Source: Paramecium tetraurelia | Taxonomy: Eukaryota > Ciliophora > Oligohymenophorea > Peniculida > Parameciidae | Length of the DNA: 64,000 bases | NCBI RefSeq assembly: GCF_000165425.1 | Contig: NW_001798994.1 | Coordinates: 124,001 to 188,000, forward strand | Direction: 5' to 3' | In this document: positions 46,369 through 50,827 of the stretch, piece by piece | Layout of the letters: each line of letters opens with the position of its first letter | Numbering within the stretch: the first letter of the stretch is position 1 | Translations under genes and position numbers: made by a program | Notes under the pieces: generated by a model | Told to the model about the DNA's origin: nothing | Databases searched by the model: none | Seen by the model: only the letters and a program-made list of their open reading frames with translations

Positions 46369-47354
46369 TCAAAAAGAACTTTTATATTGATTTGCCTTGT
46401 AATCTCCGTCCTTGTACCCATTGCAAAATTTTCGAATATCATCTTTCTTGATACCTATATCATTCTAACTGTCAATTTTGAATTCTTATTAATATATTTA
46501 CTCTTCCTATTAAAACAGCTTCTCCATTGTGGTTTCCCCCTGATAAGTTAAAATTTAATTCATGTAGGTTTTATAAATTTTGAACGAGGGAGCCTCACAG
46601 GATGAAATTCGTATTTCAACCAAACTAGTCTTGCTGCAATATTCTCTCAAGAAACTCTTGATTGCAAACAACATGACCGAAGCCAGTTTACTTCTTGCAA
46701 TTTGATTGATTTGCTAATCCATCACAGAAAAGGCGATTGATTTCACTCCCAATTCCGTTGCTTTCTCCAAACAATTAACTACTGCCTCATACACAATTTG
46801 AATTTCCCTTGACTGCGTAGAATCGAATTTCCACTTGTCAGCATATGCAGTAATAGAATTTACCCTGAAGTTCTCCTCAATTGAATATGCCATCTCCTAT
46901 TCGTAGGACTCATTCAACACTATTATTGAAGCATCAGTAGCACTAGGCAATACTGCAAAGAACAAGTAATCGTATGGCATCTAAAATCTTTATACAATAA
47001 ATCACTTCTCCAGCATGAGTATGTACAACAGATCCCAATTATACTTTTCCTCCCTAGCTCAAAAGAGTTTGGTGCAATTCATTCAATATCTAATCGCCTG
47101 CAAACTTCCTGTCTAATTAATCACACAAACTACTTAATGTGTTCTGATTGCTAACAGTTCAACTTCAATTTCTGAGTTGTAGTCAACACTATTATGTCTA
47201 CTTACTCATTAAATAATTTCCCGAGACTTAAAACTACACGACAGCCATTAATGTCTGTTTATTGAATAACTTATGCTTGTGGTCTTCCATCCTGTCTGCA
47301 AATCTAAGATTGGAATTCCGCCTAAGTGGAACAACAAATAGACCTATTGCCCAT
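46369..47354 (-). CDS. macro-domain-like protein
   Basis: Introns of 22 and 25 nt leave 312 residues. The central part follows the macro fold: SLGKLFNEQVDIIVLTTTQK, FAGDQILNELHQTL, SQGGKVQLGSVVHTHAGEMP, YDYLFFAVLPSATD and a helix near VVNCLEKATELGVKSIAFSV. The C terminus is helical and acidic-basic. Family knowledge: macro domains bind ADP-ribose or related ligands, some removing ADP-ribose from proteins. Key residues cannot be assigned with certainty by eye. An in-frame ATG upstream at 47393 lies one base from the neighbour's stop, so the start at 47354 is preferred. Confidence 0.65.
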
Positions 47355-47394: not shown

Positions 47395-48654
47395 TCATTT
47401 CAATGCATCCATCAATTTGTTTTTGATTGCCTAAGCCATCTGACTAACATCCTTCACGCCTCCATTATCCTTCAAATCGATATTTTTAACCACCGTCTTC
47501 CATCCCTCTTCCTTCTACACCTTTTCTCTTATGATAGCCCTATTCTATGACTTTCTTTAGTTTGCCTATTCTGCAAAATCACTATAATCGCATAAATTTA
47601 CTTATGTTACCTCATGAACTTCCTTACATACTCTTGGCCTTATTTTCTTCTCTGTTCTTTTAGTTTCCTCTCCGCTTCCTATATTAAATTTACACAATTC
47701 TTTTACATCCTTTTCCCTTTGCTGACTTAAGTATACATTTTGTTTATTGGATTGATTATTGGCAACTACATCATCAAATGCACTAAAGGCAGTCTGAGTT
47801 TCAATTTTGACCTAAGGCTCTGAACTTTTTACACTTTCTTCATCAAATACGAACTCCTCATAATTCCCTTAAATTAGATTTGGCTATGCTTAGGATTGAT
47901 TCTAATTAGTAGGTTTGAGTTGTGTCTCCAAATAAACTTGATTTTCATCGGATAATTATTATTGATTCTTAACATTCTCCTTTCCCATCAGAAAATCGAA
48001 TTCCAACCCATGGGCCCTCTAATCAGCACTCCCCAAGACGATTTTCTTTGTGCTTGTTCCGCCATATGTGGTAGGAATAGGAACAGGACATTATTCAGGT
48101 GCTTCAAGGCCTTCAAATGATTTACTTACTAGATGAAATTAGGAAGGATGCAGGAGAGTCCAATTGTTAACTTCAGTATTTGGGGTGAAATCAAATACTT
48201 CACTCCATTTGTTATTTTCAGGATCCAACTTGGCTTTACCAAAGTCATCTGTGATACCAGGATAAGCAAAATTGTATGGAGCAAATGTAATGCCTGTTGA
48301 TTTTTCAAGTGCTGGATCACTTGAAGTGTAGACAAAACATTATATACTAGCGAATAGACATTTGATTAATTACTTATTTGAATTTGAGACCCTAAATTAA
48401 CTAGATGCTGCACTTATCTCAATATTTTCACATTTTCTAACAAAGATAGAGCCTCCCACTGGGCCAATAAAGATTTTACAATTCTTGCTCAGATCCACGA
48501 AAATTTATGCAGCATGATCACAAATGTAAATGGTACACTCCTCACAATTGGAGATTACAAAGTCCAATCCATTTAATTATCCAGGGCTTTTAATCAATTC
48601 TTCTCCTGTTTTCTTTCGAAATTAATAATCCTCCCTATTTAATTTAGCTTTCAT
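47395..48654 (-). CDS. XRP2/TBCC-domain protein fused to a clathrin light chain
   Basis: Introns of 27, 28 and 29 nt leave one frame of 391 residues. Residues 1-150 are a TBCC/C-CAP beta-helix like RP2: KAKLNREDYQF, GLDFVISNCEECTIYICDHA, NCKIFIGPVGGSIFVRKCEN and ISAASSQFRV, where QFR carries the position of the Arl3-GAP arginine finger of RP2; NKWSEVFDFTP follows. The C-terminal 90 residues match clathrin light chain: EAERKLKEQRRKQGQEYVRK heptads, QANQRKSQNRAI, then WKTVVKNIDL and VKDVSQMAQAIKNKLMDALK, as in the heavy-chain-binding tail. A low-complexity linker joins them. No TGA separates the parts. Extra N-terminal exon sequence may exist upstream of ATG 48654. Confidence 0.8.

Positions 48655-49170: not shown

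Positions 49171-50827
<1,657 letters not shown>

Follow-up and report, generated by a model that had tools for sequence, protein, structure and literature searches.

In a 64,000-nucleotide stretch of the Paramecium tetraurelia genome (contig NW_001798994.1, positions 124,001 to 188,000 of the forward strand; hereafter the window, whose own numbering is used throughout), a single gene at 47395..48654 joins a TBCC domain like that of RP2 (XRP2), a linker, and a region derived from clathrin light chain (CLC). The gene product is probably an additional clathrin light chain that brings a GTPase-activating domain, resembling that of RP2, to clathrin coats. Pfam recognized the TBCC domain, a hidden Markov model (HMM) of unfused light chains recognized the CLC tail, and the gene models of other Paramecium species agreed that both are encoded by one gene, as the original prediction had claimed; by sequence comparison, the fusion was confirmed as real, with one gene and one spliced frame. 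The original prediction as a whole was partly supported, and the functional tie that it drew between the fused protein and Arl GTPases or cilia may hold.

Structure and conservation of the fused gene

The fused gene lies on the minus strand, as do all of its features given below. It runs from an ATG at 48654 to a TGA stop at 47397-47395 and, in the ciliate code, with 22 TAA or TAG codons decoded as glutamine, encodes 391 amino acids after splicing (P. tetraurelia macronuclear genome, contig C41). An open frame had been described at these positions and does exist, but it is not a single exon: it crosses three introns, which the original prediction had read through. All three introns begin with GTA and end with TAG: intron 1 (48347..48373, 27 nt) lies within the TBCC domain, and intron 2 (47679..47706, 28 nt) and intron 3 (47582..47610, 29 nt) lie within the CLC helix. 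Intron 1 was missing from all six deposited Paramecium proteins (P0002-P0007) and intron 2 from five of the six; in P0003-P0007 (389 to 392 amino acids), all three introns were absent from the protein. The deposited P. tetraurelia protein, P0002, corresponds letter for letter to the window gene with intron 1 alone spliced out, introns 2 and 3 being kept. These two introns total 57 nt and contain no TGA, and the read-through therefore stays open, with the 68-nt exon between them translated out of frame; the CLC helix of P0002 has 41 residues in place of the correct 22.

The length and frame of the gene matched the gene models of other Paramecium species and the ohnologue on contig C66, with which it forms a fused pair. 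In the C66 copy, introns of 27, 28, and 24 nt occupy the equivalent positions, counterparts of introns 2 and 3 among them, and its spliced product is exactly P0006. Between the ohnologues, the ratio of nonsynonymous to synonymous divergence (dN/dS, by the Nei-Gojobori method) was 0.052 in the TBCC domain, 0.073 in linker residues 163-222, 0.202 in residues 223-297, and 0.036 in the CLC region, where dN was 0.113 and amino acid identity was 78%; in this last region only the low dN is trustworthy because dS was saturated (proportion of synonymous differences, pS, 0.74). Both ends of the fused protein are thus constrained, and the disordered linker is the variable part.

The TBCC domain and the linker

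The TBCC beta-helix domain (PF07986) spans residues 31-147 (48187..48564) and is split by intron 1. PF07986 matched the spliced protein with an E value of 1e-42 and 145 bits, against a cut-off of 24.8, and the unspliced frame with an E value of 3e-37; the N-terminal Pfam matches comprised TBCC and the overlapping CAP_C only. This half is a parallel beta-helix with a fold match to RP2 and TBCC. The QFR that had been placed at the Arl3 GTPase-activating protein (GAP) arginine position proved well placed: its arginine, R88 (codon 48391..48393), aligns with R118, the arginine finger of human RP2, and E108 (codon 48304..48306) aligns with E138. Arginine and glutamate occupied these positions in 21 of 21 aligned fused rows, including P0016 and P0051, whose tails are doubtful.

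Although it keeps both of these positions, the window protein differs from RP2 in that it has no MGC acylation signal (none was found at its N terminus, which reads MKAKLNRE) and in that a CLC tail replaces the NDK-like domain. Acylation of the RP2 N terminus is described in PMC2568879. The NDK-like domain was not encountered in the structure model of P0003, in which residues 193-290 are disordered and the rest of the C-terminal part is helical and CLC derived; Pfam provides no test for that domain, because it also misses it in the separate RP2 protein of P. tetraurelia described below. Tubulin-binding cofactor C, the Arl2 GAP of the tubulin chaperone, has the same TBCC fold and arginine finger as the window protein, from which the N-terminal tubulin-binding domain of cofactor C (PF16752) is absent, the TBCC domain beginning at residue 31.

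In the alignments, the first part of the linker is conserved (residues 180-222, 47962..48090, CPVPIPTTYGG..GLEFDF), and the second part is variable and rich in glutamine and asparagine (residues 223-297, 47737..47961). The predicted local distance difference test score (pLDDT) was below 50 over residues 193-290 of the P0003 model, indicating disorder. The linkers of relatives share an NPV motif followed by an SFxIxT-like stretch, and since this pattern is also present in tail-less relatives, the TBCC-linker part is independent of the fusion. DPF and NPF motifs are of the kind bound by AP-2 and EH-domain proteins; in linkers of relatives they were seen in P0012 (nine DPF and one NPF), P0013 (three of each), and P0051 (five DPF).

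The clathrin light chain region

The CLC-derived region, a long helix followed by a tail, spans residues 298-391 (47395..47736), with introns 2 and 3 inside it. With an HMM derived from five CLCs, all unfused (P0019, P0020, P0021, P0105, and the Paramecium CLC on C171), the spliced window protein scored 32.8 bits (E value, 3.6e-7 for 100,000 sequences) and the unspliced frame 22.0 bits, the lower score being due to retention of introns 2 and 3. Of 1,107 decoys, made up of 1,000 shuffled sequences and 107 reversed proteins, none exceeded 7.9 bits. Among 4,057 open reading frame (ORF) translations of at least 50 amino acids taken from the window and from the loci that were fetched, with repeats where loci overlapped, the top score away from CLC and fused loci was 6.4 bits with this HMM and 7.6 bits with an extended model. 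When the tails of five Paramecium proteins were compared with four unfused CLCs by hhalign, the probability was 97.3 and the E value 1.9e-11 over 95 columns, and the alignment extended through the final tryptophan and the KDVSxM motif. In the window protein these are W357 (GWKTV; codon 47500..47502), the conserved tail tryptophan of CLCs, and KDVSQM (residues 373-378, 47437..47454), which aligns with KDVTRx/KDVNKM of unfused ciliate CLCs. The P0003 model has helices at 286-352 (confident) and at 356-363 and 376-390 (low confidence), the same layout as in the model of the unfused CLC P0020 (132-204, again confident, 210-224, and 229-252); pLDDT in the short tail helices was about 50 to 70 in both models.

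Because the unfused-CLC HMM, hhalign, and the predicted helix layout agree, the C-terminal half of the window protein is, judged from its sequence, a divergent region of CLC ancestry. The light chain half that was originally predicted is upheld by homology, but "canonical," the word used for it, was wrong: when the joined protein was searched as the prediction had suggested, PF07986 matched and PF01086 did not. Like CLTA and CLTB (PF01086), and as a homologue of unfused CLCs, one from its own genome among them, this half has a long helix and then a tail with the tryptophan and KDVSxM; the window protein differs from them in that its N-terminal part consists of the TBCC domain and linker and in being too divergent for the Pfam model.

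TBCC, clathrin, and Arl genes of P. tetraurelia

Seven TBCC loci exceeded the Pfam cut-off (C30, C220, C41, C66, C188, C3, and C82). Two of them, C30 and C220, form a separate RP2 pair, which rules out the window protein as the RP2 orthologue; the C30 protein matched XRP2 over residues 5-229 (E value, 2.6e-44) and likewise has no RP2 acylation signal, starting with MQNNNKPK. Six unfused CLC loci were found (C171, C91, C162, C173, C5, and C114; loci L008, L009, and L024-L027), of which C171 and C91 were spliced in full and the other four were read as frames. Their frames start with a short acidic N terminus, and none of the six contigs is on the TBCC list. Among the unfused ciliate CLCs, C171 matched PF01086 (E value, 8e-8), and a mammalian CLC was matched in the PDB (E value, 6.6e-6). 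In both C171 and C91, three of four inferred introns appear to end in AAG instead of TAG. A search of the P. tetraurelia genome with PF01086 gave no match, a result that was discounted as evidence of absence because its control also found nothing.

The six unfused loci rule out the fused protein as the sole Paramecium light chain and, being in the same genome, make it an additional one. It is by sequence also an additional TBCC protein, whose presumed partners are encoded in the genome. Clathrin heavy chain is encoded by a gene pair (C94 and C156), C18 is Arl2 (best PDB match ARL2; E value, 5e-79), and C159, C172, and C178 encode GTPases of the Arl2/Arl3 class; for the C159 exon, ARL2 led the PDB matches by a small margin. 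A quick Arl3 pattern found nothing in the Arf loci; a protein search then gave C18 and the Arl2/Arl3-class loci. Close relatives do not have the two domains solely in separate TBCC and light chain genes, the finding that the original prediction had named as a counterargument; fused and unfused forms coexist.

Flanking the fused gene, a weak macro-domain-like frame lies downstream (46372-47001, minus strand; Pfam E value of 0.001, below the cut-off) and a divergently oriented protein kinase gene lies upstream (49171-49881, plus strand; E value, 1.6e-22). Both are kept beside the C66 copy, with identities of 84% and 83 to 90%, respectively.

Distribution and origin of the architecture

Three protein searches returned 9, 16, and at least 86 proteins. 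Gene models from four Paramecium species each contained the fusion in one frame, in line with the suggestion that it be sought in other members of the genus. By database annotation, at least 13 non-Paramecium proteins carry both Pfam domains (P0008, P0011, P0012, P0013, P0015, P0022-P0026, P0028, P0029, and P0073), and our own rescan confirmed both domains in all eight that were rescanned. The named fused species number at least six, all oomycetes: Aphanomyces invadans, A. astaci, A. euteiches, Saprolegnia diclina, Achlya hypogyna, and Thraustotheca clavata. Among further proteins, P0027 keeps the domain order, its tail being divergent (29 bits with the extended model), and the tails of its close relative P0016 (3 bits, at decoy level) and of the MMETSP transcript P0051 (11 bits) are doubtful. 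No named Tetrahymena match was found among the matches listed, which came from a word-based candidate step.

The TBCC-linker-CLC order of the window protein is shared by proteins from Saprolegniales (Aphanomyces, Saprolegnia, Achlya, and Thraustotheca) that UniRef names "Clathrin light chain." They differ from the window protein in that their TBCC half nests among tail-less rows and their CLC half is placed apart from Paramecium-type CLCs. Phytophthora PcTBCC1 (DVH05_025197, identical to P0031) shares its TBCC domain and the first part of its linker with the fused oomycete proteins, with no CLC detected; this protein of Phytophthora capsici is the subject of PMC11595192. Saprolegniales thus carry the tail, whereas the same TBCC-linker protein in Phytophthora, Pythium, and Albugo has no detected tail, implying that the tail was lost or gained within oomycetes.

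In a TBCC tree of 45 rows (a 49-row set minus four of seven rows flagged for long branches), the 12 ciliate-like rows formed one clade (96/92), ciliate-like meaning simply that the TBCC domain groups with Paramecium. Ten of the 12 have a supported tail; the others are P0016 and the fragment P0014, which ends before any tail. In the 49-row tree, the long-branched P0018 fell within this group. The eight fused oomycete-like rows nested in a largely stramenopile group whose other 19 sampled rows have no tail, and a single clade of all fused TBCC domains (12 plus 8) was rejected by the approximately unbiased (AU) test (p = 1.5e-5). The ciliate-like TBCC halves fit about equally well as sister to RP2 (p = 0.45) or to the stramenopile group (p = 0.42).

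The tail tree, which is based on a short alignment flagged for long branches, separated the oomycete tails (99/98) from a group in which the tails of Paramecium, P0008, P0011, P0016, and P0027 stood with unfused CLCs of ciliates. On the oomycete side fell P0012 and P0013, whose TBCC domains are ciliate-like, and the unfused P0105. A single clade of the fused ciliate-like tails was rejected (p = 0.003 without and 0.007 with P0012 and P0013), and a single clade of unfused ciliate CLCs was borderline (p = 0.065). Identity between the P0008 tail and the unfused P0020 is 68%. Because the trees reject single clades of fused forms, either TBCC and CLC were joined repeatedly or one old fusion was followed by tail losses in several stramenopiles; in the latter case, the CLC half was either repeatedly exchanged with unfused copies or their source.

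The oomycete fused architecture is already visible in databases through UniRef names and Pfam annotation. No description of a TBCC-CLC fusion was found among the articles listed from open-licence PubMed Central, a collection with few subscription journals, judging by title and the start of the abstract. The two articles containing both "clathrin light chain" and "XRP2" were apparently proteomic studies, judging by title and abstract. According to PMC9490929 (2022), which cites Richardson and Dacks 2022, Tetrahymena thermophila and Paramecium caudatum yielded no bona fide CLC; in contrast, P. tetraurelia has six unfused and two fused CLC loci, and the fused ones escape the Pfam model.

Proposed function and alternative explanations

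In the function that we propose, the CLC-derived tail would dock on clathrin heavy chain, so that each triskelion with a fused light chain would display a TBCC domain on a flexible arm, the linker allowing the domain to reach the membrane surface; the remaining triskelia would use an unfused light chain. The TBCC domain would bind GTP-loaded Arl2/Arl3-class GTPases, and R88 would trigger hydrolysis. Coat assembly might then concentrate the GAP on the budding membrane, ending Arl signalling or cargo release there. The site is perhaps the clathrin-coated parasomal sac beside each cilium, where membrane uptake in ciliates could be coupled to the cycle in which Arl3 delivers lipidated proteins of the cilium. 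For Tetrahymena, PMC12029339 describes a clathrin-coated pit next to every cilium.

Several observations weigh against this proposal. PF01086 found no match in the spliced window protein or in the six deposited Paramecium models (P0002-P0007), and a PDB profile search with the Paramecium tails recovered no CLC, its best hit being a phage RNA-polymerase inhibitor (E value of 0.07, judged a chance match). The short tail helices are of low confidence in the P0003 model (pLDDT of about 50 to 66), and no DPF, NPF, or clathrin-box motif was found in the window protein. PMC8712872 states that W105 and W127 of mammalian CLC are required for heavy-chain binding; these positions are K and R in the window protein. 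The position of RP2 Q115 is S. In addition, none of 21 TBCC relatives, largely from oomycetes and partly fragments (P0030-P0050, including Phytophthora, Pythium, and Albugo proteins), had a CLC tail (best score, 1.0 bit); the TBCC domain can therefore work without clathrin. An SFx(I/F)xT-like linker stretch was present in all 10 of these relatives that were read.

The missing tryptophan contacts, the failure of PF01086 with the Paramecium tail, and the many stramenopile relatives without a tail would all suit a tail that no longer binds clathrin and serves as an oligomerizing or partner-binding coiled coil, the protein being an Arl GAP unrelated to coats. We regard this as improbable, since the tail has been kept between the ohnologues (78% identity and dN of 0.113, with dS saturated) and has retained the tryptophan and KDVSxM end common to CLCs; moreover, the unfused CLC on C171, which Pfam does recognize, does not have the same tryptophans either, the two positions being L and R in C171 and C91. 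Somewhat less unlikely, although still doubtful, is a coat-bound anchor without catalysis, in which the tail joins clathrin, the TBCC domain acts solely as a binding module (for Arl-GTP, tubulin, or some other factor of the basal body or membrane), and the fusion positions clathrin. The loss of RP2 Q115 and the position of parasomal sacs next to cilia would fit such an anchor, as would work cited in PMC3124502, in which E138 of RP2 is linked to NSF binding and ARL3-independent roles of R118 are allowed. However, retention of the arginine over long distances in all 21 of the fused rows aligned is more than a pure binding surface seems to need. That two neighbouring genes, or a chance coiled coil, were read as one protein is scarcely credible. 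The fusion is known from genomic sequence and gene models, and the apparent frame does cross three introns, but such an artefact is contradicted by the recurrence of this one frame in the models from four Paramecium species, the ohnologue introns at corresponding places, and the decoy and 4,057-frame ORF controls; the architecture in at least 13 non-Paramecium proteins also stands against it.

Significance

Beyond the proposal of an extra light chain with a GTPase-activating domain, a bolder and more tentative possibility is that the fused light chain ties clathrin to ciliate cilia: it might mark the clathrin of parasomal sacs, with the TBCC domain reading Arl3-GTP at the ciliary base and coupling coat turnover to Arl3 hydrolysis, and TBCC and CLC might have been joined at least twice, in ciliates and in Saprolegnia-like oomycetes. 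If true, repeated joining would point to a general, undescribed Arl-GAP/clathrin partnership in protists. The fused gene is a candidate for holding a clathrin coat beside a cilium. To our knowledge, no clathrin light chain with a catalytic domain is known; a light chain that brought its own GTPase-activating domain would control the coat in a new way, and the similar fused proteins of other protists suggest an undescribed link between vesicle coats and small GTPases.
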